64,000 nt of DNA, taken from NCBI GenBank assembly GCA_902790905.1, contig CADATO010000020.1:1-64000 (forward strand). Reading direction: 5' to 3'. This DNA comes from an uncultured Eubacteriales bacterium (lineage in GTDB: Bacteria > Bacillota > Clostridia > Peptostreptococcales > Anaerovoracaceae). Positions 14,350 to 57,089 of this stretch are shown here, one piece after another. The translations under genes and the position numbers were made by a program. Position 1 is the first letter of the stretch, and each line of letters starts with the position of its first letter. Under the pieces are notes generated by a model. That model had not been told where the DNA came from. It did no database searches and was given only the letters and a program-made list of their open reading frames with translations.

Positions 14350-14640
14350 TGAGGTTGCGGACAATATGTGTCTGCAGTCGGAATGAATACAATACCTGCA
14401 GGTGCCGGCGGAGCGATTCTCCAAGGAGTGCAGCGCCGGATAATAGGGAAACAGGTGCAAGACCTGTGCGAACTCGTCAGTGTAAGCAGATCGTTACAGC
14501 CACTTTAAGCCACTGGGAAACTGGGAAGGCGGTATGTGACCATGATCTGCAAGCCAGGAAACCTGCCTGCGGAAATGCGGACAGCGCCAGACAATGCTGT
14601 CCCGGCCACGAGTAACTGGCGGGTAAATACTGATTGAAAT
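14350..14640 (+). ncRNA. Cobalamin (B12) riboswitch, copy 1
   Basis: The leader carries the B12-box AGCCAGGAAACCTGCCTGC at about 14549-14567. It also has the conserved AATAGGGAA...GGTGCAAG...CCTGTGCGAACTCGTCAGTGT core at about 14436-14490, as in the adenosylcobalamin aptamer class. A terminator follows at 14664-14698, so it should stop transcription when cobalamin is bound. It is closely similar to the copy at 21290-21580, but here controls only a truncated chelatase gene. Confidence 0.9.
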
Positions 14641-14663
14641 CTGATCTGATCAGACTATTCCAT

Positions 14664-14698
14664 GAGGCCTTTGCTCCGCTTGGAGCAGAGGTCTTTTG
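14664..14698 (+). terminator. Expression-platform terminator of riboswitch copy 1
   Basis: GAGGCCTTTGCTCC pairs with GGAGCAGAGGTC and is followed by TTTTGT, 42 bases before the start codon. The same structure is at 21602-21638. Confidence 0.75.
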
Positions 14699-14739
14699 TA
14701 TTCATAGCAGGTTATTTTTAAGAAAGGGGTTTTACAACG

Positions 14740-14985
14740 ATGAAACATTTCAAGAAAAGCATCCTCATTCTTCTGGCGATGATCTTCGCGATGAGCATGG
14801 TCATGGTCGGTTGCGGTTCCTCCTCCGAGGAAGGTTCTGCAGCAGGCAGCAGCGCAGCTGTTTCTGATGAAGAAGCCGCAGCAGCTGTTGATGAACTGAT
14901 CGCTGCGATCCAGGTCCAGGAGTACACTGAGGACACAGAAGCACAGTGCCTGGCTGCGAAAGAAGCATGGGATGCACTGACTTAA
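14740..14985 (+). pseudogene. Truncated cbiK: lipoprotein signal and helical N-terminus only
   Basis: The 81-residue frame is almost identical to the first 81 residues of the intact CbiK at 21678: signal peptide, lipobox GCG, acidic three-helix-like segment ending AKEAWDALT. Homology stops at 14982, where the sequence switches to the inside of an IS200-type transposase gene and TAA ends the frame. It lacks the whole chelatase domain. Because promoter, riboswitch and ribosome site are intact, a small secreted lipoprotein could still be made. Confidence 0.8.
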
Positions 14986-15326
14986 GAATGCTGTGCGAAA
15001 GAAAAGGCGTCGAGATACTTGAAGCGGAGTGCTGCCCGGATCATGTGCACATGCTGGTAAGAATTCCACCGAAGTATTTAGTTTCGCAAATAGTTGGGTA
15101 TCTGAAAGGGAAAAGTTCTCTTACGATATTCGACCGACATGCGAATTTGAAATACAAGTATGGAAATAGGCATTTCTGGTGCCGCGGTTACTATGTTGAC
15201 ACAGTTGGGAAGAACACAAAAAAGATCGAGGAGTACATACGTACACAACTGCAGGAAGATATAGCAGAAGACCAGCTAAGCCTGAAAGAGTATATCGATC
15301 CGTTCACCGGAACGAAGAGCAAATAG
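14982..15326 (+). pseudogene. tnpA: IS200/IS605-type transposase TnpA, 5'-truncated
   Basis: About 114 residues from LRMLCERKGVEIL to the natural end (EYIDPFTGTKSK). It includes the HUH motif in CPDHVHMLVRIPP and the catalytic Tyr region RGYYVDTVGKN. Full-length proteins carry roughly 40 more N-terminal residues (the NCKYHIVF-type start), absent here. The gene is fused to the truncated cbiK copy, so it is a remnant. Confidence 0.85.
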
Positions 15327-15450
15327 CCCTTTAGGGCTTGTAGAGAAAGAGGTGCGGTTGGCGGATCTTTCGACGCGCCTTTAGGTGCAGCAGGTAGCAG
15401 CCCCTTCTAGGGGCAGAACAAACCACCGGCTGAGCCGGTGGTTATGATTT
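14982..15450 (+). mobile_element. IS200/IS605-family remnant with right end
   Basis: The truncated tnpA is followed by hairpins AGCCCTTTAGGGCT (about 15327-15340) and CCCCTTCTAGGGG (about 15401-15414). The perfect AACCACCGGC-TGA-GCCGGTGGTT follows at 15421-15443, the kind of subterminal imperfect palindromes IS200/IS605 transposases recognise. The left end is missing, replaced by cbiK sequence. Confidence 0.75.
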
Positions 15451-17082: not shown

Positions 17083-17790
17083 ATGAAAGTTATTGAATTA
17101 AAAGAAACCATTACAGCGTCGAACGACAGGGATGCCGAGGTGCTCAGAGAATCGCTCCGGCAGCAGGGCACCCTGCTCATCAACCTGATGGCATCGCCCG
17201 GCGCCGGCAAGACCACCATGCTGGACCGCACGATTCGTGACCTTGGGGGCGCATACCGGATCGGCGTGATGGAGGCGGACATCGACTCCGATGTCGATGC
17301 CGTCAAACTGGCGGCGCTCGGTGTCACGGCGGTCCAGGCGCATACCGATGGCATGTGCCACATGGATGCCGGTATGACCCGCACCGCGCTGGAGGAACTG
17401 GCTGCGGAAGGCGGCCATGATCTGGTGTTCCTCGAGAACGTCGGCAACCTGATCTGTCCGGCGGAGTTCGACACCGGCGCGGGAAAGAACGTCATGATCC
17501 TGAGCGTGCCGGAAGGCGACGACAAACCGCTCAAATACCCGCTCATGTTCACGAAGAGCAATGTGCTGCTCATCAGCAAGACCGATACCATCAGCGTCTT
17601 CGACTTCGATTTTGAAAAGTGCGAGGAGCGCGCCAGAAAGCTCAACCCGGACATCGAGATCTTCCGGGTCTCCGCGAAGACCGGGGACGGGATGGATGCC
17701 TGGGAAGCGTGGCTGAAAGATGCCATAGCGAACTGGAAAGCATCCGGAGCGACAGCTGAAGGAGCGGTGAAGGAGGACAGCCATGCATGA
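17083..17790 (+). CDS. hypB: HypB, GTPase for nickel insertion
   Basis: A 235-residue SIMIBI GTPase with P-loop SPGAGKTT (about 43-50), metal-site GMCHMD and NLICP, and ENVGNLICPAEFDTGAG. HypB with HypA loads nickel into [NiFe]-hydrogenase or other nickel enzymes. The N-terminus lacks the histidine-rich nickel store of some HypBs. The gene overlaps hypA by 8 bases. No hypCDEF or hydrogenase is in the window; the client enzyme is unknown. Confidence 0.92.
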   Translation: MKVIELKETITASNDRDAEVLRESLRQQGTLLINLMASPGAGKTTMLDRTIRDLGGAYRIGVMEADIDSDVDAVKLAALGVTAVQAHTDGMCHMDAGMTRTALEELAAEGGHDLVFLENVGNLICPAEFDTGAGKNVMILSVPEGDDKPLKYPLMFTKSNVLLISKTDTISVFDFDFEKCEERARKLNPDIEIFRVSAKTGDGMDAWEAWLKDAIANWKASGATAEGAVKEDSHA

Positions 17791-18172
17791 GATGGGCATC
17801 GTCATCCACCTCGCGAAAACGCTGGATGAACTCGCCGAGGAGCACCACATCACAAGAATCGGCTCGGTGACGCTGTCGGTAGGGGAAGTCTCCGGGATCG
17901 TGAACGATCTGTTCATCGATGCGTGGGAGTACTTCAAGAAAAAGCACCCCATCCTGAGCGATTCCGAACTCAGGATGGAAGTCATCCCGGCAGTCACGCA
18001 CTGCGACGGCTGCGGGGAAGACTACGAAACAGTTGCCCACGGCAAGATCTGTCCGCACTGCGGCAGCAAGGAGACCTGGCTGATCCAGGGCAACGAGTGC
18101 ATCATCAAGGAAATCGAGGCTGAAACAGCACCGGAGGAAGAGGATCCGGCTGTAGACGGCAGCGATTCCTGA
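17783..18172 (+). CDS. hypA: HypA, nickel metallochaperone
   Basis: A 129-residue protein with N-terminal MHEMG (His2 and the amino terminus bind nickel) and a zinc ribbon CDGCG...CPHCG. This matches HypA/HybF, with an acidic tail longer than usual. It starts inside the 3' end of hypB after AAGGAGGACAG. It delivers nickel to HypB or to the target enzyme. Its final codons contain one of the rare coding copies of GCGATTCC (18162-18169). Confidence 0.92.
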   Translation: MHEMGIVIHLAKTLDELAEEHHITRIGSVTLSVGEVSGIVNDLFIDAWEYFKKKHPILSDSELRMEVIPAVTHCDGCGEDYETVAHGKICPHCGSKETWLIQGNECIIKEIEAETAPEEEDPAVDGSDS

Positions 18173-18213: not shown

Positions 18214-21120
18214 ATGCCCGAAATATATCGGAAGAAAAAAGAAACGATCTCCAAGTATGAAGGAGAACCGCTGCAGAAGAAGTATGCCAAACTGGCAGGC
18301 AAGATCACGGACAACGTGAAGAACAAACTGCGCGGCGTCAAGTCCACGGACCCCGAATACTGGGGGCTGCGCGAGATCCTGACCGAAGATGAGGTCGATG
18401 TCCTGCTCACGCTCAAACTGCGCAAGTGGTACACCGCCGATCAGATTTACGAGAAGAACAAGAAACAGTTCTCCAGAGAGAAGATCGACGAACTGCTGTG
18501 GCAGATGTCGGTCCACGGTATCCTGGAATACGACTACGGCGATCATTACGATGACAACGGCCCGACACAGGAAAAGGATCCGTCCGAGATCCGGTACCGG
18601 CTGTCGTTCTTCGTGCCCGGCAGCGCGGAGCTGTTCAACTCGTCGCAGGACAGAGTCGACGCCAACCCGCCGGTCGCTTCGTTCTTTGAGCGCATGACCT
18701 TCCTGCCGCTGGAGGACATCACCCCGATGGTCCGTCCGGGCGGCGACGGGATCGGCATGCATGTCATCCCGGTCGAGAAGGAAGTCAGCATGCACAGCGA
18801 GGCGCTCAACATCGAGAAGATCTCGTACTGGCTCAAGAAATACGAAGGCCACATCTCCGCCGGCATCTGCTCGTGTCGCTACTCCAGAGCCAAGCTCGGC
18901 GAGGGCTGCACGGATGATGAGAACGACTGGTGCGTCCAGGTCGGCGACATGGCGGACTACACGGTCGAGACCGGTCGTGCGCACTACATCACGACCGAGG
19001 AAGCGCTCGAGATCTTCCGCCGCGCCGAGGAGAACGGTTACGTGCACCAGACGACCAACATCGACGGCGAGGACCACATCTTCGACATCTGCAACTGCAA
19101 CCCGCAGATCTGCAACGCGCTGCGCACCTCGCAGCTGTACAACACGCGCAACCTGTCCAAGAGCGCGTACACGGCAGAGGTCGACAAAGAGAAGTGCGTC
19201 GCCTGCAACCGCTGCGTAGAAGTCTGCCCGGCCGGCGCGATCAAGCTCGGCCAGAAGCTCTGCAAGGCGGATGGCAGCGAAGTCGAATATCCCAAGCAGA
19301 TCCTCCCGGACAAGATCCGCTGGGGCAAGTATGCCTGGGATGAGAACTACAGAGACAACAACAGGGTCAACACCCATAAGACCGGCTCGTCGCCCTGTAA
19401 GGCGGCGTGCCCGGCACATGTCCCGGTCCAGGGTTACCTCAAGATGGCCAAGGAAGGCCGTTACGACGAGGCGCTCGCTCTGATCAAGCGCGAGAATCCG
19501 TTCCCTGCGATCTGCGGCCGCGTCTGCAACAAGAAGTGTGAAGACGCCTGCACCAGAGGCAAGATCGACGCACCGGTCTCGATCGACGAGGTCAAGAAAT
19601 TCCTCGCGGAGCGCGACCTGCACGCGGAGACGCGCTATGTGCCGAAGAAGATCATCAACAACCTCACCGGCGAATGGCCGCAGAAGATCGCCATCATCGG
19701 CGCGGGCCCGGCAGGTCTGTCCTGTGCGTACTACCTCGCATCGCGCGGGTATTCCCCGACGGTCTTCGAAAAGCATGAGAAGCCGGGCGGCATGATGACC
19801 TATGGCATCCCGACCTTCAAACTGGCGAAGGATGTCATCGACGCCGAAATCGACGTGATCCGTCAGCTGGGTGTCGAGATCCGCTGCGGCGTTGAAGTCG
19901 GCAAGGACGTCACCATCGAGCAGCTGAAGGAAGAAGGCTATCAGGCGTTCTACATCGCGATCGGCTGCCAGGGCGGCAGACTCCCCGGCGTTCCGAACGA
20001 AACGGCGGAGGGGACCGACTTCGCGGTGCATTTCCTCAAGGAAGCGCTCAGCGACCCGGACCAGAAATACGACGGCAACGTCGTGATCGTCGGCGGCGGC
20101 AACGTCGCAATCGACTGCGCGAGGACCGCGCACCGGTTCCGCCCGGACAGCGTCAGCATGTACTGCCTGGAATCCAGAGAGACCATGCCGGCGTCCAAAC
20201 AGGAAATCGCCGAGGCAGAGGAAGAAGATATCCGCATCGAGCCCGGCTGGGGGCCGAAGGAAGTCCTCGTCGATGAGAAGGGGCATGTGAACGGCATCGT
20301 CTTCAAGCGCTGTCTGTCCACGATCGATCCGGTGACGGGTGCCTTCTCGCCGAAGTATGATGAAGAGGAAACCATCACCGTGCCGGCGGACCGCATCGTC
20401 TTTGCGATCGGCCAGGCGGTCGAGTGGGGCGGCCTGCTCGAAGGCACGGGTGTCACGTTCTCCCGCGGCACCTGGCCTGCAGCCGACAAGTTCACCTATC
20501 AGACGGAAGATCCGGCGGTCTTCGTGGGCGGCGATGTCTTCACCGGCCCGAAGTTCGTCATCGATGCGATCGGGCAGGGGCATGAGGCGGCAGAATCGCT
20601 GGCCAGATTCGTTTCCGAGAACAATGTCCCGCAGACGATCGGACGCGACAGACGCTTCTTCAAACCGCTCGACACCGACGACATCACAGTTCCGTCCTAC
20701 GACCATGCGGGCAGACAGGAACCGGAGATCGAGCAGATCGAGGATCCGAGCCACTCCTTTTACGATCCACGCAGGATCCTCACCGAGGAGCAGGTAAAGT
20801 GCGAAGCATCCAGATGCCTCAGCTGCGGTATGACCATCGTCGATGAAAACCGCTGCATCGGCTGCGGCCTTTGCACGACGCGGTGTGAATTCGACGCGAT
20901 CCACCTGAAGCGCGACCATCCGGAAATGACCGACTACCGTGCAGCGGAGAAGAAGGTCACCGGCCTGCTCTCGTACGCTGTCCCGCGTGCGGTCAAGATC
21001 GTCCTCAACAGCGGCTCCAAAGACGCGAAGGAAATGCGTGCAAAGCGCAAGGAATTCAAGAAGGATCCGAACAAGCCGCACACCGGCAATGCGATCAATA
21101 CGGAAGATCTGATGAAGTAA
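18214..21120 (+). CDS. Large Fe-S/FAD oxidoreductase (GltD-like, 968 residues)
   Basis: Domain order: winged-helix-like N-terminus (about 55-110); a cysteine-rich region with CSCRYSRAKLGEGC and CNCNPQIC; a 4Fe-4S motif CVACNRCVEVCP (about 330); a GltD-type N-terminal Fe-S domain (CKAACPAHVPVQGYLKMA, CGRVCNKKCEDAC). Then come FAD (IIGAGPAGLSCAYYLASRGY) and NADPH (VVIVGGGNVAIDCA) sites and a C-terminal ferredoxin motif (CIGCGLCTTRCEFDAI). GltB is not nearby, so this is probably an electron-transfer or bifurcating-type oxidoreductase rather than glutamate synthase. AAGGAGAGGAGAAGG precedes the start. A terminator follows. Confidence 0.85.
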   Translation: MPEIYRKKKETISKYEGEPLQKKYAKLAGKITDNVKNKLRGVKSTDPEYWGLREILTEDEVDVLLTLKLRKWYTADQIYEKNKKQFSREKIDELLWQMSVHGILEYDYGDHYDDNGPTQEKDPSEIRYRLSFFVPGSAELFNSSQDRVDANPPVASFFERMTFLPLEDITPMVRPGGDGIGMHVIPVEKEVSMHSEALNIEKISYWLKKYEGHISAGICSCRYSRAKLGEGCTDDENDWCVQVGDMADYTVETGRAHYITTEEALEIFRRAEENGYVHQTTNIDGEDHIFDICNCNPQICNALRTSQLYNTRNLSKSAYTAEVDKEKCVACNRCVEVCPAGAIKLGQKLCKADGSEVEYPKQILPDKIRWGKYAWDENYRDNNRVNTHKTGSSPCKAACPAHVPVQGYLKMAKEGRYDEALALIKRENPFPAICGRVCNKKCEDACTRGKIDAPVSIDEVKKFLAERDLHAETRYVPKKIINNLTGEWPQKIAIIGAGPAGLSCAYYLASRGYSPTVFEKHEKPGGMMTYGIPTFKLAKDVIDAEIDVIRQLGVEIRCGVEVGKDVTIEQLKEEGYQAFYIAIGCQGGRLPGVPNETAEGTDFAVHFLKEALSDPDQKYDGNVVIVGGGNVAIDCARTAHRFRPDSVSMYCLESRETMPASKQEIAEAEEEDIRIEPGWGPKEVLVDEKGHVNGIVFKRCLSTIDPVTGAFSPKYDEEETITVPADRIVFAIGQAVEWGGLLEGTGVTFSRGTWPAADKFTYQTEDPAVFVGGDVFTGPKFVIDAIGQGHEAAESLARFVSENNVPQTIGRDRRFFKPLDTDDITVPSYDHAGRQEPEIEQIEDPSHSFYDPRRILTEEQVKCEASRCLSCGMTIVDENRCIGCGLCTTRCEFDAIHLKRDHPEMTDYRAAEKKVTGLLSYAVPRAVKIVLNSGSKDAKEMRAKRKEFKKDPNKPHTGNAINTEDLMK

Positions 21121-21289: not shown

Positions 21290-21580
21290 GTTGCGGGCAA
21301 CAGGTGTCCGCAACTGCAATGAATACAATATCTGCAGGTGCCGGCGGAGCGATTCCTTAAAGAATCTCAGCGCCGGATAATAGGGAAACAGGTGTAAGGC
21401 CTGTGCGAACTCGTCACTGTATGCAGACCGTTGCAGCCACTTGAGCCACTGGGAAACTGGGAAGGCGGTATGTGACCATGGTCTGTGAGCCAGGAAACCT
21501 GCCTGCGGAAATGTGGACAGCGCCAGACAATGCTGTCCCGGCCACGAGTAACTGGCGGGTAAATACTGATTGAAAACTGA
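21290..21580 (+). ncRNA. Cobalamin (B12) riboswitch, copy 2
   Basis: Same aptamer as copy 1, with B12-box AGCCAGGAAACCTGCCTGC at about 21489-21507 and the AATAGGGAA/GGTGTAAG/CCTGTGCGAACTCGTCACTGT core. A terminator at 21602-21638 precedes the ribosome site of cbiK. High cobalamin should shut off this chelatase gene and possibly the lipoprotein after it. Confidence 0.92.
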
Positions 21581-27500: not shown

Positions 27501-30373
27501 TTTCTCTCACGCTCAATGAATCGAACAATTGGACCGGTACATTCGAGGATCAGCCCAAGAATGCGGGCGGCCAGGCGATTACGTACACCGTCATCGAGAA
27601 TACGACCGACGTCATCACAGGTACAGACGGACTCGGGACCTATGCTTTCGAAGTGACCGGAAGCGTGGCCAGCGGGTTCACAGTGACCAACACCCATACT
27701 CCGGCACTGACCAAGTATAAGGTGACAAAGGCCTGGGTGGATGCGAACAACCAGGATGGATACCGTCCTGACAGCGTCACCGTACACCTTATGAATGGTG
27801 ATGAAGTTGTTGATACGCAGACGCTGACAGCAGCGAACAAATGGACCTATGAGTGGACGGAGCTGCCGAAGTTTGACGGCAAGACGGAGATCGATTACAG
27901 CGTCAAAGAGGACCCCATCGAACATTACACAATGACCAGTAATAAAGAGACGAAGACGGATGACGGAGTTGAAGCAGTCATCACCAATACACATGAGACA
28001 GAGAAGACTACCTTCACTGCCACAAAGGTGTGGGTCGATGACAACGACCGCGACGGTCTCCGGCCGGATTCGGTCACTGTGCAGCTGCAGGATAAAGACG
28101 GCAACAAGTACGGTGATCCCGTCGAGCTGAATGCAGCCAATGAATGGACCTACACATGGGAAAACCTTGATGTGTACCCGAAAGTCGATGAGGATCCGGA
28201 TGCTGCTGAGACTGACAGCACCGGACAGGATCAGGACAACTCCGGTACAGAAGGCCAGCCGGCGCAAAGAAGCGTACCTGCTGCAGAGCCTGCTGAGGGA
28301 GACGCGCAGACTGTAGAATCGCCTGCCGAGGATACAGAAGCCGTCACACCTGACGAAGCGGTCGAAGAAACCCCGGTTGACGAGAGTGAGGCAGTTGCCG
28401 AACCGGATGAAGAAGTCATCGAGGGACCGGAAAAGAGAGAGGCTCGGACACGCGACGGGGCAGAAAAGATCGAGTACACCGTTGTAGAGGTCGTAGTTCC
28501 GGACGGTTACAAAGTCTCTTACGAAGAAGTCAAGGATGGTGACACTGTGACCGGCGTTACGGTAACGAACACCCATACTCCTGAGACGATCAACATCGAT
28601 GTTAAAAAAGTCTGGAAGGATGCCGACAACGTGGATGGCATCAGACCGGATGAAATCAAAGTAAACCTGAAGGCGGACGGTACGGTCGTGGGTTCCAAGG
28701 TTCTGGATGAAGACAATAAGTGGGCCGACACGTTCAAGGGTCTGCCTAAGTATAAGGAAGGTGCGAGCGGGGTAGCAATCGAATACACCGTCGAAGAAGT
28801 GACCGACAGTGTCATCACCGGCACGGACGGCTCCGGCACCTACAGCTTCGAAGTGACCGGCAGCGCTGCAAATGGCTTCACAGTCACGAATACGCATACG
28901 CCGGAAGTTATCAACATCCCAGTAACGAAGAAGTGGGAAGATAAGGAGGATATGGACAAGATCCGTCCTGCTTCCGTGACCGTACAGCTTCTGGCGGACG
29001 GTACGGCGGTCGATGGCAAGACACTGCAACTGACTGCAAGCGACAGCTGGACCGGTACATTCGAAGATCTGCCCAAGTATAAAGAAGGCAAGACCGGAAC
29101 AGAAATCGTCTACACAATTGAGGAAGTCAAGGATAACGTAATCACCGGCACCGACGCAAAAGGCACCTACGCGATCGTAGGCGTTTCCGGAAGCGCCAGC
29201 GAGGGCTTCACCGTCACCAACAAACACACACCGCGCACCGATGTCTCGATCACGAAGGTCTGGGACGATGCGGATGATGTCGACAGCTACCGGCCGACAG
29301 CGGATCAGTTCAAAGCATATGTTGAACTGTATGCGAACGGTGTGAAAGTGGATGCCGAGGCGGAAGTCACTGTGGATTCTGACGACAGCAACAAGTTCCT
29401 GGTGAAGTTCAAGGATCTGCCCGCATTCGATGCTAATGGCAATCCCATCACCTATACAGTGAAAGAGCTTATCGGCAAGATCGAAAACTATAATGTAGTC
29501 GGGGCAGATGAGGTGGCAGCTGGCGGTACAATCACAAACAAACACGAACCGGACAAAACGGAAGTCGTAATCACCAAGACTTGGTCTGATATGGACAACA
29601 AATACAAACTGCGTCCGACAACAGAGGAATTTAAAGACAGCATCCATCTGATGGTCGGCGAAGAAGAGGCCAAGGATGCGGAAGGCAAAGCCTATGTACC
29701 GACCGTGACAGTCGGCGAAGACGGCAACACGTATATCGTCACGTACAGCGGCCTTCCGAAGAATGAGTTGGTCGACGGTGAATCTGCCGCAATCGAGTAC
29801 TCCGTCAAGGAAGATGAAATCGCAGGATACACTGCTGAGATCGGTGATATCACGAAAGAGACCGACGAGGAGACCGGAGCCGTCACGTATACCATCGACA
29901 TCGATAACACGATGGAGTTCGGTGACGTCAGGATCACGAAGGAACTTCTCAGCATCGAGAACCTGAGCCTCGGCAATGACGAGAGCAGCGACAAGACATC
30001 GTTCGTGTACAGCGTCAAAGCAACTATGGAAGTCGGCGAGAAGACAGTCACCGTCTACGACGGCTACGTGACACTGGACTTCAGCGGAACGGGCACAGAG
30101 TTCGCGGTCATCGAAAACCTACCGGCCGGCGCGGTGGTAGAGGTCGAAGAGGTCTACAGCGGCGCGTCGTACACCAAGCAGACCGGTCCCGATTGGGATG
30201 CGGAAGATCAGACGGTCGTGGCGGACGAAACGATCAACGTGGACTTCAGCAACGACTACAACAACGGCCTGACGCAGGGCTGCGCGATCCAGAACGAATA
30301 CGTAGCGGAAGGCGGCAGCTGGGTGCATCTCACAGAAGTCATCAACAACAACATGGAACTGCAAGTGCGGTAA
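24512..30373 (+). CDS. Giant VWA/Cna-B surface adhesin (1953 residues)
   Basis: Signal peptide ending FASAEA (about 1-41). A von Willebrand A domain follows at about 78-315, with MIDAS DTSSS (Asp86-Ser88-Ser90) and MMTDGACT. Two degenerate beta domains come next, then at least eight Cna-B repeats from about residue 850 to 1800. Each opens with K-x-W-x-D..N/D..D..RP-x-S-V and most close with VTNTHTP, the Lys/Asn/Glu set that makes isopeptide bonds. One repeat is interrupted by a long acidic Pro/Glu-rich segment (about 1228-1315). A final beta domain precedes the end ELQVR; there is no LPXTG or membrane helix. It heads an operon of TasA-like and anchored surface proteins. Confidence 0.88.
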   Translation: MIAKGIRSDRRRKQRRKVFSWLMVLCMVLTMFTPQFASAEAGQVPAHSKTIHDNGDGTYNLELSVTGDADDETQEAGKVNIVVIYDTSSSMTSNAQGSNYTRADQAEDVVHDFLTNLATYQNDARDNINVALVTFARTSNNQGSGWTTDVTGIANRFDDGGTDRQTSRNYSGTAANGTNWESAIDAAVERVRSAPGGADVPTFVIMMTDGACTASGNGNNAINPSGASIGQLRPFYTAATDEAYALAQACEATGGTFYGIYAYGTEADLLDDLMYFSENNQHRGGNINNVVAATQDAPNFFRAADTSALNTAITEIFNEVVNSLGISSVSISDGTTNQVTTGTGVSELLEVDGSSYKYWISIPVVNNQFTRKMNVVEDGVSRVETVTYTVTDNGDGTCRVNWTEGGSAKSVTVSGSVSSGNFKYQWTASNDLYKYNPPAARLVNGSVEWNLSSVGTLLDGVTYSVTFDVYPSQETLDDVADIKNNPGPNGAWKDLDPAVQQYIDVNGNLKTNTTATLTYSDTRLDNPGPKTSTYTNPDPVKNSAVEQMAVTKEWDNALTEEWKKPDGIVLNVTRDDDPHYTVTLTDDNDWQGSVYVSIGIMGEDGKPLKGSEGHDFTFTEPEIQGEGFKWEIDAPTVHPMLINNQPTMLIKVDKKHPAPSGAKTYEFNDATYYVGDEGVALTATNERRSSINLVKTVIGEDVPEDAVFPFTLNVTDPLAPATAPTQTEDPNHDSDYWIWISVWDKDKQNVTDAVVSGATYAGGSWYYGESGKNIVLNVKDGYSIRINNVPVGTTYTITEGNNLPTGFIFEGADIKFTDGRQPDPDWAFTGNQTSTGSVDSTNAVYTITYTNKYELRDITVEKIWDDASNQDGVRPTELALTLNGMPAGMTAPTPIIEKNGDIWTYTWKAVPKYDADGEEIAYTVTENTVPDDYTCTDTKALDGESITNSHTPELIDIPVTKVWEDKENQDQIRPDSVTVELRANGQAVIDPTTEEALSLTLNESNNWTGTFEDQPKNAGGQAITYTVIENTTDVITGTDGLGTYAFEVTGSVASGFTVTNTHTPALTKYKVTKAWVDANNQDGYRPDSVTVHLMNGDEVVDTQTLTAANKWTYEWTELPKFDGKTEIDYSVKEDPIEHYTMTSNKETKTDDGVEAVITNTHETEKTTFTATKVWVDDNDRDGLRPDSVTVQLQDKDGNKYGDPVELNAANEWTYTWENLDVYPKVDEDPDAAETDSTGQDQDNSGTEGQPAQRSVPAAEPAEGDAQTVESPAEDTEAVTPDEAVEETPVDESEAVAEPDEEVIEGPEKREARTRDGAEKIEYTVVEVVVPDGYKVSYEEVKDGDTVTGVTVTNTHTPETINIDVKKVWKDADNVDGIRPDEIKVNLKADGTVVGSKVLDEDNKWADTFKGLPKYKEGASGVAIEYTVEEVTDSVITGTDGSGTYSFEVTGSAANGFTVTNTHTPEVINIPVTKKWEDKEDMDKIRPASVTVQLLADGTAVDGKTLQLTASDSWTGTFEDLPKYKEGKTGTEIVYTIEEVKDNVITGTDAKGTYAIVGVSGSASEGFTVTNKHTPRTDVSITKVWDDADDVDSYRPTADQFKAYVELYANGVKVDAEAEVTVDSDDSNKFLVKFKDLPAFDANGNPITYTVKELIGKIENYNVVGADEVAAGGTITNKHEPDKTEVVITKTWSDMDNKYKLRPTTEEFKDSIHLMVGEEEAKDAEGKAYVPTVTVGEDGNTYIVTYSGLPKNELVDGESAAIEYSVKEDEIAGYTAEIGDITKETDEETGAVTYTIDIDNTMEFGDVRITKELLSIENLSLGNDESSDKTSFVYSVKATMEVGEKTVTVYDGYVTLDFSGTGTEFAVIENLPAGAVVEVEEVYSGASYTKQTGPDWDAEDQTVVADETINVDFSNDYNNGLTQGCAIQNEYVAEGGSWVHLTEVINNNMELQVR

Positions 30374-34060: not shown

Positions 34061-34114
34061 TTTTCAGGGGGCCTGTGGAGCAGCAGCAAGGCAAGTTTTA
34101 AAGGGGAATCGCAC

Positions 34115-34646: not shown

Positions 34647-34750
34647 TTTGGCCAATTCTGCTCATTATAATGGAAAGCAGCTGCACCTTAAGCAGCGATT
34701 CCATTTTATGAATACGTAACCTATGCACCTATAAAACAAAGGAGCGAACA

Positions 34751-37618: not shown

Positions 37619-38717
37619 CATCAAAGAGCCGTTCCTCCACATCACCAAGCGCAAGGAGATGGCCTGGCAGAAGGCATGGGCGATCCGCGGCGGGATGATC
37701 CTGCTGGCGCTCGTCATCTGTGCTGTTATCACGGCAAGTACGACGGAGCTTTCCCCGCTCGCTGTCTACGGCACCATGTTCAAGGGGGCGCTCGGCAGTG
37801 CCCGCAAGGTATGGGTCCTCGGCAAAGAGCTGGCGATCCTGCTGGCGATCGCGCTGGCGCTGACTCCCGCATTCCGTATGAAGTTCTGGAACCTCGGCGG
37901 CGAAGGGCAGGTCCTGGTCGGGGCGCTGGCAACGGCGGCCTGCATGATCTACCTCGGCAAGACGCTTCCCAATGCGATTCTCATCCCTGTGATGTTCATC
38001 GCGGCGGTGGCGGCCGGTGCGCTCTGGGCCATGATCCCGGCGTACTTCAAGGCGAAGTGGAACACCAACGAGACCCTCTTCACGCTGATGATGAACTACG
38101 TGGCGACGCAGCTCGTGGCGTACTACATCATCATCTGGGAATCGCCCAAAGGCTCCGGCAAGGTTGGTATCATCAACCAGAATTCGGAGGCGGGCTGGCT
38201 GCCTGTCATCGGCAACAATAAATATCTGCTGATCATCCTGATCGTGGCAGCGGTGACGATCGCGATGCACATCTACCTCAAATACAGCAAACATGGTTAT
38301 GAACTGACGGTTGTCGGGGAAAGCCAGCAGACGGCGCGCTACGTCGGCATCAAGGTCGACCGCGTCATCATCCGTACACTGTTCCTATCCGGTGCAGTCT
38401 GCGGTCTGACAGGCTGGCTGCTCGTTTCGGGCTCCGACCACACGATCACGACGACGCTCGCGGGAGGCCGCGGCTTCATCGGTGTCATGGTCGCCTGGCT
38501 CGCGCAGTTCAACCCGATCGCCATGGTCGCCAGCAGCCTGCTGCTCGTGTTCATGACGCGCGGGGCGCAGGAGATCTCGACCATCTACGGACTCAACCAG
38601 TCCTTCGGCGATATCCTGACGGGCATCATCCTGTTCTGCATCATCAGCAGTGAATTCTTTATCAACTATCAGATACACGTCCGCAAGGCGGCGGGAAAGG
38701 AGGAAGCAAATGTTTGA
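37608..38717 (+). CDS. Nucleoside ABC transporter permease 1
   Basis: About 369 residues with 8-10 membrane helices, BPD_transp_2 family (LGGEGQVLVGALATAA, RYVGIKVDRVIIRTLFLSGA, GGRGFIGVMVAWLAQFNP). It matches YufP/NupB-type permeases. TTG at 37608 (GGGAGGAGG upstream) or GTG at 37599 are possible starts. It overlaps the ATPase gene by 11 bases and the second permease by 8, showing translational coupling. Confidence 0.9.
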   Translation: MNNSIKEPFLHITKRKEMAWQKAWAIRGGMILLALVICAVITASTTELSPLAVYGTMFKGALGSARKVWVLGKELAILLAIALALTPAFRMKFWNLGGEGQVLVGALATAACMIYLGKTLPNAILIPVMFIAAVAAGALWAMIPAYFKAKWNTNETLFTLMMNYVATQLVAYYIIIWESPKGSGKVGIINQNSEAGWLPVIGNNKYLLIILIVAAVTIAMHIYLKYSKHGYELTVVGESQQTARYVGIKVDRVIIRTLFLSGAVCGLTGWLLVSGSDHTITTTLAGGRGFIGVMVAWLAQFNPIAMVASSLLLVFMTRGAQEISTIYGLNQSFGDILTGIILFCIISSEFFINYQIHVRKAAGKEEANV

Positions 38718-39696: not shown

Positions 39697-39703
39697 CGCG
39701 GCG

Positions 39704-39749
39704 ATTCCGCAAACCGCGGCTCAATGCAGCAGAGTTCCGCAACCCGCGG
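39704..39749. repeat. Short direct repeat TTCCGCAA(A/C)CCGCGG
   Basis: Two 16-base words, at 39704-39719 and 39734-39749, differ at two bases and start 30 bases apart. The first overlaps a GCGATTCC word. They lie between the permease gene and its terminator. Confidence 0.45.
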
Positions 39750-39824: not shown

Positions 39825-40151
39825 GTTTTTCGCCGGGTGTACAAAATCGCAGCGGAGAAGGAGGCGCTGCAACGGCCTTGATTATGTATATCTCAAGAAA
39901 GTGGCAAAGGATACAAACGCAGTTATGTATAAAACCGGGAAACAGTTGATATACAAATAAACCGTAACCAGAGCAGGAACTCTGCAGCCTATTGGTTTGT
40001 ATATAGAGAGAAATAGAGTTGCTGTACAAAGCGGGTTATGTACAGCGCTGTAGAATTGCGATTCTTACATAATCATGGGTTGCGCCGTGCCCCAGAATCG
40101 CCAAATAAGTGGAAAGTGTTGATCAAAGCAATAGAAAGAGCATTATGGAAA
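39825..40151. other. AT-rich gene-free region
   Basis: No supportable gene. It contains GCGATTCT at 40058-40065 and its reverse complement AGAATCGC at 40094-40101, a potential hairpin with a 28-base loop. A GTACAaagcgggttaTGTAC inverted repeat lies at about 40024-40043. Confidence 0.4.
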
Positions 40152-41082: not shown

Positions 41083-41239
41083 GTAAAAGATGCGGGGATG
41101 ATATAAGAATCGCTTACACCCGGCGCCGCAAAAAAATGGTTTTCAAACGGACGAAACGTATTTAAAACAGAGGGCAGTTGTGGTAGAATAAGTGAAAATG
41201 TGCAAAGGGTGTAACAGCCACTGAAAGGATGACCGCAGG

Positions 41240-41658: not shown

Positions 41659-41745
41659 AAAGAAATACCGGCAGAGCGATTCCTTACGGGCGACAGCAGA
41701 ACAGCCGGCAGTAATATATCAATATGAAATGGATAGGAGGATCCA

Positions 41746-44922: not shown

Positions 44923-44970
44923 GCAGCCGGCTATGGCCTGGCGCAGTACGCGCTGCATCTAAGAATCGCA

Positions 44971-45128: not shown

Positions 45129-45653
45129 ATGATCAAGGTTGTACAAGGGGATATCACGAAGCTGGATGTGGATGCCATCGTGAACGCGGCGAATAAGACG
45201 CTGCTTGGCGGCGGCGGTGTCGACGGGGCGATCCACCGGGCGGCAGGGCCGAAACTGCTGGAGGAGTGCTATACGCTCCACGGCTGTGAGACCGGAGAAG
45301 CGAAGATCACCAAAGGATATGATCTGCCTGCGAAGTGGGTCATCCATACAGTGGGGCCCATCTGGCACGGCGGCACACATGGTGAAGAGGATCTGCTTGC
45401 TGCCTGCTACTGGAACAGCCTGAAACTGGCCGAAGAAAACGGCTGCCGGAGCATTGCGTTCCCGGCGATCAGCACCGGCGTGTACGGGTATCCCAAAGAA
45501 CGCGCGGCAAAGATCGCGGTCGGGATGATCCGCCGGTATCTGGCGGAACGGAGCAGGAAGGACGATCTGCTGATCATCCTGTGTGCGTTCGCGGCAGAAG
45601 ATGCAAAAATCTATGAGCGCGTGCTCGCGGAAGCCGGGCAGGCAGAGAGATAA
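45129..45653 (+). CDS. Macrodomain protein, ADP-ribose deacylase/hydrolase type
   Basis: A 174-residue protein, MacroD-type: [33 protein letters not shown], and [11 protein letters not shown] all match the ADP-ribose-binding macrodomain with the catalytic loop of O-acetyl-ADP-ribose deacetylases. I start at the ATG at 45129 after GGAGGGAACC, not the upstream frame. It removes ADP-ribose or acetyl-ADP-ribose marks. It lies 33 bases before a second macrodomain gene, with which it is probably co-transcribed. Confidence 0.88.
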
Positions 45654-45686
45654 GAATCGCTGCGTCTTGCGGGAAGGAAGACACGT

Positions 45687-48453: not shown

Positions 48454-48488
48454 AAAAAGAGCGATTCCGCAAATGGAATCGCTCTTTT
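48454..48488. terminator. Bidirectional terminator built from GCGATTCC inverted pair
   Basis: AAAAAGAGCGATTCC-gcaaat-GGAATCGCTCTTTT forms a perfect stem with A- and T-runs on both sides. It serves the convergent VWA and CoA-transferase genes. The stem is the recurrent 8-base word in both orientations. Confidence 0.9.
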
Positions 48489-48509
48489 GATACATCTGAT
48501 CTGCGCTCT

Positions 48510-49697: not shown

Positions 49698-49892
49698 AGA
49701 TTTGTCTCCTTCTGTATTCTGCAGCGCTGCTGTCCGCGCTGGGGTGTTCAGCCTGTCTATTGTCTCATATGGAGCGGGGGAAAGCAAGGAAGGCGGCGGT
49801 GTGCGCTTCTTGTGCGCGGCAGGCAGGTAGTTTATAATATGAGCAGGCTGGGTCTGCCGGCCGTGTGACTTAATAAGAAAGAGGAATCGCTT

Positions 49893-50814: not shown

Positions 50815-51975
50815 ATGGAAATGGAAAGTAAGGTGTTCCGCCGGCGGCGTCCCGTCCCGGCGGAACTTGAGAAATACGGTTTTACAAAGACGCCGGAGGG
50901 GTGGGTCTATGAAACGGACCTGCTCGCCGGTGCTTTTCGTGCGCAGGTCATGGTCGGACAGCAGGAAGACGGCAGCGTGCAGGGCGATGTCATCGACGCC
51001 GAAACCGGCGAACCGTACGCGCCGCTCCGCGTGGAGCGGGGCGTGGGCAAATTCGCCGCGGAGGTGCGGCTGGCGTATCTGGATCTTCTGGAGGACATCG
51101 CCGGGAAATGCTTTCAGCAGCAGCGATTCCTCTGGGCGCAGACGGAGCGGATCGCGTCGGCGATCGCAGACAGATTCGGAGATGCGCCGGAGTCCATCTT
51201 TGAGAAGTACCCCGAGATCACGACATTCCGCATCCCGCGCACGCACAAGTGGTACGGCATCACCATGGAAGTGCAGGCGGGCAGCCTGCGTGCCAAATCG
51301 GCGGCCGGCACAGGAAAGCAGGCGGACGCACAGCCGCAGAAAAGCGGCGTGGCCGGCAGACGTGCGGCGGATCCGCTGGACCGCTACACGGACAAGCAGA
51401 CCGTCGAGATCATGAATGTCAAACTCCCGGCGGACCAGGTGGAAGCGCAGCAGAAAGTGCCCGGCATCTACCAGGCCTATCATATGAATAAAAAGCACTG
51501 GGTGACGATCCTGCTCGACGGGACTGTCCCGGACAAGGATATCCTCGCGCTCGTGGAGACCAGCCACGCGATCGTGGCGCGCGGCGGCGGCAAGACGGGC
51601 GGCACGCCGCTTCATGACCACACCTGGGTGATCCCGTACGCCTACGACTTTTTCAATGTGGCGGCAGCGTTCGAGGAAAGCCCCGATCTGGAGTGGCAGC
51701 AGGCGGCCAGAATGCAGGTAGGCGATACGGTCTATATGTACTGCGGCGCGCCGATTAAGGCGATCCGCTACCGGTGCACGGTCAAAGAGACCGATATCCC
51801 CAATCATTCCGGCTACCGCGAAGACAGGTATCCGTATCTGGTCCTGCTGCACCTCGAAGAAAGCTACGCGGACGATGTGATGCCCCTGGCAAAGATGAGG
51901 GAACTCGGGCTGACGGGCGTGCGCGGGGCGCGCCGCGTGCCTGAGAAACTGGCGGACTATATGCGCGGACTCTGA
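50815..51975 (+). CDS. Tandem YjbR/MmcQ-like protein with C-terminal EVE/PUA-like domain
   Basis: A 386-residue protein. The N-terminal YjbR/MmcQ-like part is at about 1-150 (KYGFTKTPEGWVYETDLLAG ... TTFRIPRTHKWYGITM). The second MmcQ-type segment is at about 195-260 (QKVPGIYQAYHMNKKHWVTI). A C-terminal segment (WVIPYAYDFFNVAAAFEES, MQVGDTVYMYCGAPIKAIRY, TVKETDIPN) reads as an EVE/PUA-like domain. YjbR folds resemble CyaY; EVE domains bind modified bases. No ribosome site is obvious before 50815. It may depend on coupling with prsW, whose stop is 49 bases upstream. Confidence 0.65.
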   Translation: MEMESKVFRRRRPVPAELEKYGFTKTPEGWVYETDLLAGAFRAQVMVGQQEDGSVQGDVIDAETGEPYAPLRVERGVGKFAAEVRLAYLDLLEDIAGKCFQQQRFLWAQTERIASAIADRFGDAPESIFEKYPEITTFRIPRTHKWYGITMEVQAGSLRAKSAAGTGKQADAQPQKSGVAGRRAADPLDRYTDKQTVEIMNVKLPADQVEAQQKVPGIYQAYHMNKKHWVTILLDGTVPDKDILALVETSHAIVARGGGKTGGTPLHDHTWVIPYAYDFFNVAAAFEESPDLEWQQAARMQVGDTVYMYCGAPIKAIRYRCTVKETDIPNHSGYREDRYPYLVLLHLEESYADDVMPLAKMRELGLTGVRGARRVPEKLADYMRGL

Positions 51976-52212
51976 TTCATTGCCGGCAGGAGGCCATTTC
52001 TCCTTGAATTAGTATAAAACGGAACTGTTAAGAATTTATTTTTCCAGAAATCGGCTGATTAGAGCAGTCGATTTCTTTTTTGTACTATGTTAAGAAAAGG
52101 AATAAAAAGTAAAATATATAAGATATATTATCGAAATTTACTGTATCTTAACATTATTGGATATTCGACTGGCCTTAAAGAGACTGCAGAGAAAGGCGCA
52201 CAGGAGGATGGT

Positions 52213-52602
52213 ATGCAGGCATTAATGGGAATGAGCGTAGATAAGATGGTCATCGTGCTCCCGTCCGCACTGATCGGGATGTACCTGATCATTCTGCTGC
52301 AGAAGACGCTGAGCGAGCGGCAGAACCCGTACGCCGGGCTGATCATCCCGGTGCTTTGTTTTGTTGCCGCCACGTTCCTGGCTGTACGCCCTCTGTTTGT
52401 TGCAGAGCCTGGCCAGTATGAAGGGTTGGGTGTTTTTTGCCTGCGCATGTGGCTGACCTTCAACATCCCGACGATCGTGTTCATGTTCCCGTATATCCGG
52501 CAGAGAAAACTCATGAAGGCCATCGCAGAGGAGATGACGCAACAGGAATCGCAGGAGCCCGCCGCGGGCAGCAGCGCGGATATAGGCGCGGCCGCGGACT
52601 GA
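52213..52602 (+). CDS. Small membrane protein, unknown function
   Basis: 129 residues from the ATG at 52213 (CAGGAGGATGGT before it). Three membrane helices (MVIVLPSALIGMYLIILL; YAGLIIPVLCFVAATFLAV; FNIPTIVFMFPYI) and a charged Ala/Glu-rich tail. The open frame extends upstream to 52087 through very AT-rich sequence that looks like promoter rather than coding. No family recognised. Confidence 0.6.
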   Translation: MQALMGMSVDKMVIVLPSALIGMYLIILLQKTLSERQNPYAGLIIPVLCFVAATFLAVRPLFVAEPGQYEGLGVFCLRMWLTFNIPTIVFMFPYIRQRKLMKAIAEEMTQQESQEPAAGSSADIGAAAD

Positions 52603-52713
52603 GCGGGGCGGCATGGAGGCTGCCTGTTTGGAGGCGATTCCTTAAATACGTTTATATATAGGTTCTATATATAAAAATAGTTCTTATTAGTTTCTTTATA
52701 AAGGAGGTTCTTT

Positions 52714-54273: not shown

Positions 54274-54308
54274 GCCGGATACGGACCGTTACCTAAGGAG
54301 ACATTGCT

Positions 54309-54443: not shown

Positions 54444-54450
54444 GAACAGA

Positions 54451-54486
54451 CCCCGGTGTCTTGCATGAGGCACCGGGGCTTCTTTT
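54451..54486 (+). terminator. Terminator of the permease operon
   Basis: CCCCGGTG-N12-CACCGGGG followed by CTTCTTTTG. Confidence 0.85.
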
Positions 54487-54521
54487 GCATGGAATCGCTT
54501 ATAAATAGGAAAAAACGGAAT

Positions 54522-54550
54522 TTGTACGCACATCCAGCAAGTGATAATAT
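54522..54550 (+). promoter_or_regulatory. Promoter of the AraC/glycerol kinase operon
   Basis: TTGTAC (54522-54527), a 17-base spacer and TAATAT (54545-54550). A GGAATCGC word lies at 54491-54498 upstream. Confidence 0.6.
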
Positions 54551-54598
54551 TAGTTGTAAGTAATATTATTCCGATTTGTATTAGTATGAGGACTTCGT

Positions 54599-55507
54599 AT
54601 GGGGTATTATGTCAGCGACAGACAGGTGCTGGCGTCCGCGATGGAGCGTTCGCTGTACCGGCCGCTGCGCATCGAAATAGAAGGCTGCAGGAGGACCGAT
54701 GAGATCCTCGCGCCGGGGCATCCGCTGTATCTGTCGCTTTGTACCGTCTGCACACTGGAGAATGTGACAGAGCATCCGGTCACCTACCCGGTCTTCCCGA
54801 CGGGCTGCATGACGCTCGCCTTCAGGGAACGGAACGGGGAGCAGCAGAACTGGCTGTGCGGACCCGCGGATGAGATCAGAAAGACGGTGCTTCTGCCGGG
54901 GGATCAGCTGCTGGTGCTGGAGTTCATGCCGGGCAGCAACACGGCGTTCCTGCGCTGTGCGGTCTCCGATCTGACCAACCGCTGCGCGGATATCACACAG
55001 ATGATCCGCAACGGCAGCCGGCTTAAGAAGATCGCGGAACGCGATATTCCGGTCAGTCTGAAGGCGCTGCTGATGTCGCGCGTGCTGCGCGTCGAGTCAT
55101 TCGAAAGAGAGAGCGATTACCTGATCCACTTCTGCACGGAGGAGATCCTCCGCGCCGGCGGGGCGATCAAGATCAGCGAACTCGCAAAGAAAGCCGGGTT
55201 CACCGAGCGGTATATCAGCCAGATCTTCGGCAGGCACATCGGCCTGTCGCCGAAAACCTACGCCGAGATCATCCGGCTGCAGACATCGCTTGGCAATGTG
55301 CTCGCAGCAGACGGGCAGAAAGGGCAGGCGGCGAAGAAGTCGCTGCTGGAAATCGCAGTCGAAAACGGCTATTTCGACCACGCCCACATGAACCGCGCGT
55401 ACCAGCGCTTTCTGCATTGCTCGTCCGGTGTGCTGCGCAGGAAGGGCCTGGCGGCGATCGACATGGATGATGTGAAAGAAATACTGGAACAGGGAAAGGA
55501 AAGTTAG
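54599..55507 (+). CDS. AraC-family transcriptional regulator
   Basis: A 302-residue regulator. The N-terminal cupin-like sensor is at about 1-150 (LSLCTVCTLENVTEHPVTYP, LLPGDQLLVLEF). The C-terminal double helix-turn-helix has ISELAKKAGFTERYISQIFG and LLEIAVENGYFDHAHMNRAY. The second motif is separated by an unusual linker (ADGQKGQAAKKS). The gene ends two bases before glpK, so it very likely regulates the glycerol kinase gene; the ligand is unknown. Confidence 0.85.
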   Translation: MGYYVSDRQVLASAMERSLYRPLRIEIEGCRRTDEILAPGHPLYLSLCTVCTLENVTEHPVTYPVFPTGCMTLAFRERNGEQQNWLCGPADEIRKTVLLPGDQLLVLEFMPGSNTAFLRCAVSDLTNRCADITQMIRNGSRLKKIAERDIPVSLKALLMSRVLRVESFERESDYLIHFCTEEILRAGGAIKISELAKKAGFTERYISQIFGRHIGLSPKTYAEIIRLQTSLGNVLAADGQKGQAAKKSLLEIAVENGYFDHAHMNRAYQRFLHCSSGVLRRKGLAAIDMDDVKEILEQGKES

Positions 55508-55508
55508 T

Positions 55509-57005
55509 ATGGCAGGCAAATACTATCTGGGACTGGACAACGGAACGACCGGGACAACGGCCCTGATCCTGGACGAAAAATGGAACAGCGTGGGACGCGG
55601 GTACAAAGAGCTGACGCAGCACTACCCGAAGCCCGGCTGGGTCGAACACGATGCGATCGAGATCTGGGACAGCATTCTGTATGCCGTCTCGGCCGCCTGC
55701 AAAGAGGCGGGGATCGAGCCGACGCAGCTCGCCTGCATCGGCATCGACAACCAGGGCGAGACAGTCGTGCTCTGGGACAAGACGACCGGCGTGCCGGTCT
55801 ACAATGCAATCGTCTGGCAGGACCGCCGGGCGGCCAAATACGCGGACAGCATCACGGAAGAGTACGGCGCGATGGTGCGGGAGAAGACCGGCCTGATGAT
55901 CGACTCGTACTTCTCGGCGACGAAGATCAAATGGATCCTCGACAACGTCGAAGGCGTCCGCGAAGGGGTGGAAAACGGCCGCATTCTCGCCGGCACGCTG
56001 GATACCTGGATCATATGGAAAATGACGCACGGGCGGACGTTCGTCACGGACGTGACGACAGCGAGCCGCACGATGTTGTTCAATATTCACACAAAGCAGT
56101 GGGACCAGGATATCCTGGACGTGCTCGGCATCAACAGAAAGATGCTGGCGGAGATCAACGACAGCTCGCACGTTTACGGCTACACGGACCCGCTGGACTT
56201 CTTCGGCGCGCGCGTTGCGATCGCGGGCTCTGCTGTTGACCAGCAGGCGGCGCTGTTCGGACAGGGCTGCTATGCGCCGGGGGATATCAAGTGCACGTAC
56301 GGCACCGGCTGCTTCATGCTCATGAACACCGGCGAAAAGCCGATCTATTCGCGCAACGGCATCCTGACCACGGTTGCATGGGGGATTGACGGCAAGATGA
56401 CTTTCGCGCTCGACGGCGGTGTCTACATCACCGGCGCTGCGACGCAGTGGCTGCGCGACAAGCTGCAGATCATCGACAACGCGGCGCAGACCGAGCAGAT
56501 GGCGATCGACGCAGGCGATAACGGCGACGTTTACTTCGTGCCGGCGTTCACCGGTCTGGCGGCGCCGCACTGGGACAGCTACGCGCGCGGCATGATCATC
56601 GGCATCACCGGCGGCACGAGCCGGGAGCACATCGTCCGCGCCACGCTGGAGTCCACGGCCTATCAGGTGAAAGACAACCTCGATGTCATGCGCATGGATG
56701 CCAACATCCCGATCAACCGCATGCGCGTCGACGGCGGTGCGGTCGCGAACAACTTCCTGATGCAGTTCCAGGCGGACCTGCTGGGCTTCCCGATCGACGT
56801 GCCGAAGATCCACGACACGACGCCGCTCGGGGCGGCGTACCTCGCGGCGCTCGGCATCGGCGACTTCAAGACGCTGGACGAGATCACCGAGATGTGGCAG
56901 CTCGAAAAGACCTTTGAGCCAAAGATGGGGGACGATGAAAGAGAAACGCTCCTCTACAAGTGGCACAAAGCGGTCGAGCGCTCCAAGAACTGGGTCGAAG
57001 AATAA
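55509..57005 (+). CDS. glpK: Glycerol kinase (FGGY family)
   Basis: A 498-residue FGGY kinase with the GlpK order of motifs: DNGTTGTTA at the N-terminus (DQGTTS in most GlpKs), VWQDRRAAKYAD, the DQQAALFGQGCYAPGDIK and TYGTGCFMLMNTGEKP pair, and the C-terminal VDGGAVANNFLMQFQADLLG. It phosphorylates glycerol to glycerol-3-phosphate. The first motif and SAVDQQ (AGDQQ usually) differ slightly, so another polyol is possible. GGGAAAGGAAAG precedes the ATG and overlaps the regulator's end. Confidence 0.88.
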   Translation: MAGKYYLGLDNGTTGTTALILDEKWNSVGRGYKELTQHYPKPGWVEHDAIEIWDSILYAVSAACKEAGIEPTQLACIGIDNQGETVVLWDKTTGVPVYNAIVWQDRRAAKYADSITEEYGAMVREKTGLMIDSYFSATKIKWILDNVEGVREGVENGRILAGTLDTWIIWKMTHGRTFVTDVTTASRTMLFNIHTKQWDQDILDVLGINRKMLAEINDSSHVYGYTDPLDFFGARVAIAGSAVDQQAALFGQGCYAPGDIKCTYGTGCFMLMNTGEKPIYSRNGILTTVAWGIDGKMTFALDGGVYITGAATQWLRDKLQIIDNAAQTEQMAIDAGDNGDVYFVPAFTGLAAPHWDSYARGMIIGITGGTSREHIVRATLESTAYQVKDNLDVMRMDANIPINRMRVDGGAVANNFLMQFQADLLGFPIDVPKIHDTTPLGAAYLAALGIGDFKTLDEITEMWQLEKTFEPKMGDDERETLLYKWHKAVERSKNWVEE

Positions 57006-57089
57006 CAGCGGGACCGGCATGAGCGATTCCGCGGCATCATAAATCACTACCTTTACCTATTACTTCTGTATCTTGAAAGGAGCAAAATA

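Follow-up and report, generated by a model that had tools for sequence, protein, structure and literature searches.

A strand-neutral octamer abundant in a genome of the Anaerovoracaceae (Clostridia) as a probable DNA uptake word, with candidate dialects in related genera

DNA uptake words are documented in two unrelated Gram-negative families. The DNA uptake sequence (DUS) of the Neisseriaceae exists in eight dialects and has ComP as its receptor (PMC3630211), while the uptake signal sequence (USS) of the Pasteurellaceae is present in 1,471 copies in H. influenzae (PMC1852404). Transformation of Micrococcus luteus makes use of Flp/Tad pili together with ComEA and ComEC (PMC6370729), and in lineages of the kind considered here uptake has been described as not specific for sequence (PMC12153270). 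The present analysis concerns an octamer, GCGATTCY (GCGATTCC or GCGATTCT, counted on both strands), in a stretch of 64,000 nucleotides from an uncultured Eubacteriales bacterium of the family Anaerovoracaceae (GenBank assembly GCA_902790905.1, contig CADATO010000020.1, positions 1 to 64,000; hereafter the window) and in the genome from which that stretch comes (G000; 2.0 Mb in 57 contigs). A first-pass annotation of the window had likened the octamer to an uptake word or to a regulon-wide leader motif. Judged from sequence comparisons, the former suggestion is supported by the number of copies, the use of both strands, the excess within genes, a fairly sharp core, the absence from an integrated stretch and the words of relatives, and GCGATTCY probably works as a DNA uptake sequence in this genome.

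The whole source genome holds 1,093 copies (566 forward and 527 reverse) against 36 (19 and 17) of the same word read backwards, which served as the control. Like the DUS of the Neisseriaceae (PMC3630211), GCGATTCY is a short non-palindromic word occurring on both strands, in and between genes, in hundreds to thousands of copies, and to the dialects among the genera of that family may correspond the words of four related genera (g2, g4, g5 and g6; see below), which have a short stretch in common. It differs from the DUS in the word itself, in the small number of inverted terminator pairs, in its Clostridia host and in that the sole clear pilus of the source genome is of the Tad rather than the type IVa kind. 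Its copy number is similar to that of the USS in H. influenzae (PMC1852404, PMC12616744), and some of the Pasteurellaceae tabulated likewise have few close pairs (PMC1852404); the word is, however, unrelated to the USS, the lineage is presumed Gram-positive, and the flanks in the source genome were compared over six bases only. With M. luteus (PMC6370729) the source genome shares ComEC and a ComEA-like protein alongside a Tad/Flp locus, no ATPase of the ComGA/PilB type having been found in it, whereas no uptake word is described in the available text on M. luteus, and the Tad locus examined here contains a TadE-like protein in which two Cys/His motifs occur. Taken together, the number of copies, the strand neutrality, the excess arising from synonymous choice and the existence of separate words in different genera are reminiscent of uptake words (PMC3630211, PMC1852404, PMC5031613). 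The word is not filed as a DUS or a USS, because the pilus type differs and uptake rests on likeness. Among the matches listed in a thin search of open-licence PMC papers, there was no report of such words, or of natural transformation, in this group of Clostridia.

Within the window, 28 exact copies were counted against 8.6 expected (standard deviation 3.0, largest 17, in 100 dinucleotide shuffles). These shuffles put the expectation at one per 7.4 kb, so that the rate of one per 16 kb initially estimated was too low; over the whole genome, the reversed word is met about once in 56 kb. Among 9-mers the best is AGCGATTCC (complementary strand, GGAATCGCT), with 453 copies in the genome (246 and 207) against 1 and 4 for its reversal; both this 9-mer and GCGATTCY reach the copy number typical of the DUS and USS, namely hundreds to thousands of a 9-12 nt word per genome, and the two strands are used equally, as would be expected of such words. 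The core is fairly sharp, with 15 of the 18 single changes at positions 2-7 of AGCGATTCC (GCGATT) remaining below 2-fold; the exceptions are G to C at position 4 (5 vs 2.0) and, at position 5, A to C (44 vs 15.6) and A to T (13 vs 6.6). At the ends, T and G are tolerated at position 1 and C is not, position 9 tolerates T and, to a lesser degree, A, and the change of C to A at position 8 is 3.5-fold. Beyond the core, the clearest preferences, read from six bases on each side, are for a purine before GAATCGC and for a base other than G after it, the conserved bases reaching a width of only about 10-11 nt in the flanks examined. In a sample of 291 genomes of the class, the next-highest count of GCGATTCY was 411 in 2.8 Mb (G256), and among 197 genomes of the family the next-highest count of AGCGATTC was 212 in 4.9 Mb, compared with 650 in the source genome. 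No second genome of its genus turned up in either sample. The names attached to relatives of its TadA and pilin proteins point to the Anaerovoracaceae (Family XIII).

For the placement of the word, genes were predicted with a simple purpose-made caller based on codon usage; densities and shuffles refer to 464 kb (the window plus 400 kb), positions and orientations to a sample of 504 kb with 253 sites, and coding expectations to 60 shuffles of synonymous codons. The initial emphasis on intergenic DNA was borne out in terms of density (1.40/kb in intergenic DNA and 0.39/kb in genes, a ratio of 3.6), but not in terms of numbers, since 177 of the 253 sites lie within genes. In genes, GCGATTCC was found 58 times in sense and 64 times in antisense orientation against 8.4 and 13.6 expected (5- to 7-fold), and GCGATTCT 17 and 22 times against 4.5 and 11.6, with GCGATTCA (4 and 6 vs 2.0 and 4.3) and GCGATTCG (9 and 10 vs 5.8 and 8.0) near expectation. 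As the excess over synonymous shuffles is present in both orientations, codons appear to have been chosen to make the word, whichever strand reads it. Between genes, GCGATTCC (49 vs 1.6) and the overlapping AGCGATTC (40 vs 1.2) are the top two 8-mers by ratio of over-representation, the intergenic frequency being far above expectation. An excess in genes beyond codon choice, together with a greater density between genes, is also a trait of the DUS and USS.

The same figures bear on two explanations of a different kind. The higher intergenic density, along with two near-perfect hairpins among the 253 sites, is what might be seen if the word belonged to dispersed mobile repeats, such as repetitive extragenic palindromic (REP) elements or others resembling miniature inverted-repeat transposable elements (MITEs), or to one terminator family spread between genes. 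This is highly improbable given the narrow conserved width, the lack of long common flanks, the rarity of inverted pairs and the location of most sampled copies in genes, where the synonymous-choice excess in both orientations contradicts it; nor do the sites form one terminator family. Hardly more credible is a site that organises the chromosome, or a regulatory leader or operator common to a large regulon; two window copies beside start codons and two in riboswitches might point that way. The copy number and the prevalence of sites in genes both stand against such a role, as do the similar densities in the three types of gap (tandem 1.38, divergent 1.95 and convergent 1.25 per kb), the random-like spacing between sites (coefficient of variation 0.87) and the orientation relative to genes, which shows no bias either overall (95 sense, 82 antisense; P 0.37) or when the count is confined to pieces in which one strand has 75% or more of the gene length (61/75; P 0.26). 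Of the 47 sites in tandem gaps, 30 lay closer to the stop codon. The regulon-wide leader and terminator-family readings were consequently rejected on coding excess and position.

As a control, the same procedure was applied to 200 kb taken from E. coli K-12. The REP-like words of this genome, which we take to be REP elements, were mainly intergenic (18 vs 0.4 between genes; 1 and 5 vs 0.8 and 3.8 in genes), and Chi showed an excess in genes that was strongly skewed, with 42 sense and 10 antisense copies against 17.2 and 2.7. The latter result is relevant to the possibility that GCGATTCY is a Chi-type recombination word, one that a nuclease resembling AddAB or RecBCD would recognise in double-strand break repair and that would likewise build up genome-wide and be scarce in foreign DNA. 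Known Chi words differ among genera, and GCGATTCY is, like Chi, a short word dense in ordinary chromosomal DNA; it is also missing from the integrase-bearing stretch at the left end of the window (no site in 1-14412; Table 1). Chi is nevertheless one-directional, whereas GCGATTCY lacks strand skew by both counts given above and the words of four relatives have no significant skew either (32/18, P 0.065; 57/56; 52/59; 77/85), so that a Chi-like role is disfavoured by comparison with the skewed control and is considered unlikely. In the source genome, poorly adapted DNA was poorer in sites, the least-adapted tenth of bins having 0.22/kb and the top fifth 0.64/kb, a trend in favour of uptake.

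Symmetric words were also sought in 13 further genomes, 11 of the family and 2 of the order, of which four were sampled more deeply (240-320 kb); first-pass nulls rest on 60-108 kb per genome, so weak words would escape. In four of the 13 (G001, G097, G232 and G250) the top word was in excess in both coding orientations as well as between genes. The word of G001 (genus g2), GGCTTTGCT, had an 8-mer score of 45.9 and in-gene folds of about 3.8 and 6.6; the corresponding values were 62.0, 6.2 and 5.2 for GTTTTGAT within GGTTTTGATA in G097 (g4), 33.9, 4.6 and 3.7 for CTTTGATA in G232 (g5), and 44.1, 3.6 and 3.3 for TATTTTGT in G250 (g6). Genus words are strong in g2 (GGCTTTGCT) and g4 (GGTTTTGAT) and weaker in g6 (TATTTTGTT) and g5 (CTTTGATA). 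Counted over whole genomes against the reversed word, GGCTTTGCT occurs 294 vs 7 times in G001 and at most 62 times in 28 other genomes, and GGTTTTGAT 381 vs 9 times in G097 and 264 vs 4 times in its congener G414, with at most 103 copies in 27 others and 42 and 65 in the g4 genomes G449 and G477. In g6, TATTTTGTT was counted 522 vs 48 times in G250, 440 vs 43 in G454 and 226 vs 28 in G481, and was weak in a fourth genome, G420 (96 vs 41). In four genomes of g258 the words of g2, g4 and g6, the three that were looked for, had low counts. No comparable symmetric word was detected in the 60-108 kb taken from each of the other nine sampled genomes, where top symmetric scores went up to 8.9; the margin in these first-pass samples is thin, CTGGAAAA, a coding word of G415, scoring 8.9 against 10.1 for G232.

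An rpoB tree of 28 genomes, from which G041 was left out for want of an rpoB match, places g2, g4, g5 and g6 in one clade of 16 genomes (support 80/95); G351 and G415, which adjoin this clade, showed no symmetric word of that strength in their samples. Compared with letter-shuffled words, those of these four genera show greater likeness to one another (P 0.0002), and the five words together, that of the source genome included, give P 0.0009 with blind 9-mers and a weaker P 0.008 with blind 8-mers; a 9-mer comparison in frames chosen by hand gave P 0.00005 and was set aside. Resemblance of this kind is compatible either with common descent of all five from one ancestral system or with an independent origin of the word in the source genome. 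As a separate matter, G041 is rated 100% complete, yet has no rpoB match.

Turning to the machinery, ComEC was found in the source genome over the cut-off (contig 34), and a ComEA-like match was found on contig 1 (E 6e-32, under the family cut-off). A single Tad pilus locus on contig 5 encodes TadA, two T2SSF proteins, Flp1, TadE, DUF5702 and, as a weak match, a TadE-like protein, and no pilus ATPase in this genome passes the T2SSE cut-off except one of the CpaF/TadA type. The source genome thus has ComEC and a ComEA-like protein with a type IV filament locus and, at that cut-off, shows no type IVa pilus such as serves uptake in the known uptake-word families. The TadE-like Tad pilin (L065:13752-14507) bears two repeated His-Cys/CxxC motifs that are invariant in 53 aligned sequences; its motif-bearing half showed no Pfam domain, a sequence search of the PDB at E 10 gave no match to the protein, and for the C-terminal half Foldseek and VIA-align returned no clearly informative match among the matches listed, which mostly cover residues 25-134. 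Its candidacy as a receptor stays a guess, because the word-less genome G041 has a gene of the same kind.

If GCGATTCY is indeed an uptake word, a surface DNA receptor, possibly a Tad minor pilin, would bind it, and word-bearing DNA would enter through ComEA and ComEC and then recombine. The word would accumulate since alleles carrying it would be taken up and fixed more often, and the genus-specific words would be dialects limiting exchange between genera. We take the lineage to be monoderm and presumably Gram-positive, and tentatively propose, on the strength of sequence data, that the Anaerovoracaceae may possess sequence-specific uptake via Tad pili with an own word dialect in up to five genera, which would have originated outside the two Gram-negative families and be the first in monoderms. 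Were this true, isolation by DNA words could come about with a different type of pilus and a different cell envelope, as a convergent case in which an own-word tag lets the import machinery prefer DNA of its own kind; natural transformation would be predicted in this group of Clostridia; and several dialects, genera with and without a word, and candidate receptors would make up a directly testable set.

A further explanation has to be weighed against uptake, namely that a methyltransferase or DNA-binding protein uses GCGATTCY, making it a methylation- or restriction-related word or a genome-wide compositional habit. HIP1 in cyanobacteria is a comparable habit, the core with tolerant end positions and the strand-neutral, genome-wide spread would suit such a word, and E. 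coli likewise has a symmetric over-represented word, CGCTGGCG. This reading carries a small probability, much like that of a Chi-like word: GCGATTCY is non-palindromic, each sister genus would need a different enriched word, and both its fold and its intergenic excess are well above those of the E. coli word, which occurs 11 vs 1.1 times between genes (10-fold) and scores 18.3, against 50.2 for the same test on a 264-kb part of the source-genome sample.

Several observations weigh against uptake as the function of the word. The E. coli word is symmetric in genes (46 and 23 vs 14.9 and 7.6, about 3-fold in each orientation), from which it follows that symmetry alone is no proof and that words this strong can occur in a species not known for uptake words; G232 and G250 are weaker cases for this reason, their in-gene folds being near that 3-fold. 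The reversed word is a loose control and not neutral, its level being surpassed in many genomes for causes particular to them (411 vs 43 in G256). Poorly adapted DNA shows no depletion of the words in G097, where the trend is opposite, or in G250, where there is none. Of the 47 tandem-gap sites, 32 have GCGATTCY running in the direction of the genes, a mild bias, and inverted pairs are few, with 4 within 10 nt among the 253 sites vs 1.4 expected, in all orientations, which lends slight support to the initial mention of pairing in terminators. The g2 word is borne by one of four genomes (G001); the source genome branches earlier in the rpoB tree, apart from the other bearers, and its word resembles that of G001 (P 0.03), not that of G097 (P 0.60). 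As for the machinery, the ComEA matches in the 12 genomes searched are all under the family cut-off; ComEC (12 of 12), ComEA-like matches (12 of 12) and DUF5702 (13 of 13) are present in every genome searched, word-less ones included; and no receptor was identified, no search aimed at ComP or ComN relatives having been made.

Other dispersed words were encountered among the relatives. The strong words of G415 and G377 were not counted as dialects, being intergenic only. In G415 (L093-L096), GAGCAGTAGAA was represented by 16 copies of GAGCAGTA vs 0.3 in 80 kb with no coding excess, and is a dispersed intergenic element of another kind; in G377 (L082-L084), GGGTGCGAAA was represented by 7 copies of GGGTGCGA vs 0.2 in 60 kb. 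G097 (L028-L031, L193-L203) has the intergenic-only words TTGGTACTGG and AATGTGCCA besides its main word.

The individual sites of the window are collected in Table 1. All 17 positions originally listed carry GCGATTCC or GCGATTCT in either orientation, and 11 of the 28 matches, beyond those 17, lie in predicted genes. The description of the 17 as non-coding holds for the most part; those at 45653 (by one stop-codon base) and 34105 touch predicted genes, the latter because the caller picked an upstream TTG start. A one-base variant reported at 62694 is present as GCGATTAC and begins at 62695. The pair at 48461 and 48475 is flanked by A/T runs; it is unlisted by a generic terminator scan of 39500-58000.

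Table 1. Exact copies of GCGATTCY in the 64-kb window and the stretch at its left end
Feature	Position	Strand	Context
GCGATTCT	14413..14420	+	inside cobalamin riboswitch
GCGATTCT	17148..17155	-	in gene 17083-17790
GCGATTCC	17958..17965	+	in gene 17783-18172
GCGATTCC	18162..18169	+	in gene 17783-18172
GCGATTCT	20592..20599	-	in gene 18214-21120
GCGATTCC	21349..21356	+	inside second cobalamin riboswitch, homologous to the first
GCGATTCT	28315..28322	-	in long gene 24578-30373
GCGATTCC	34105..34112	-	directly 5' of ATG, or in gene if TTG start used
GCGATTCT	34612..34619	+	in gene 34029-34646
GCGATTCC	34695..34702	+	intergenic, tandem genes
GCGATTCT	37974..37981	+	in gene 37608-38717
GCGATTCC	38138..38145	-	in gene 37608-38717
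GCGATTCC	39701..39708	+	4 nt past stop codon
GCGATTCT	40058..40065	+	left arm of loose inverted pair
GCGATTCT	40094..40101	-	right arm of loose inverted pair with 40058
GCGATTCT	41106..41113	-	intergenic
GCGATTCC	41676..41683	+	intergenic
GCGATTCT	44962..44969	-	adjoins terminator-like hairpin 44970-44998
GCGATTCT	45653..45660	-	overlaps a stop codon's last base
GCGATTCC	48461..48468	+	left arm of perfect inverted repeat, convergent genes
GCGATTCC	48475..48482	-	right arm of perfect inverted repeat with 48461
GCGATTCC	49883..49890	-	2 nt before start of gene 49893-50765
GCGATTCC	51123..51130	+	in gene 50815-51975
GCGATTCC	52545..52552	-	in gene 52213-52602
GCGATTCC	52634..52641	+	intergenic
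GCGATTCC	54491..54498	-	intergenic
GCGATTCC	57023..57030	+	17 nt past stop codon
GCGATTCT	58943..58950	-	in gene 58359-60053
Lower-GC stretch with Tn916-type integrase (4602-5834)	1..14412		zero copies; about 7 expected at 253 per 504 kb

The two cobalamin riboswitches extend over window positions 14383-14584 and 21319-21520, each with the word close to the 5' terminus of the region matching the aptamer, and the sites at 14413 and 21349 may not be independent, because they lie in homologous riboswitches with common flanks. A purine riboswitch aptamer is located at 33928-34029 of the window.

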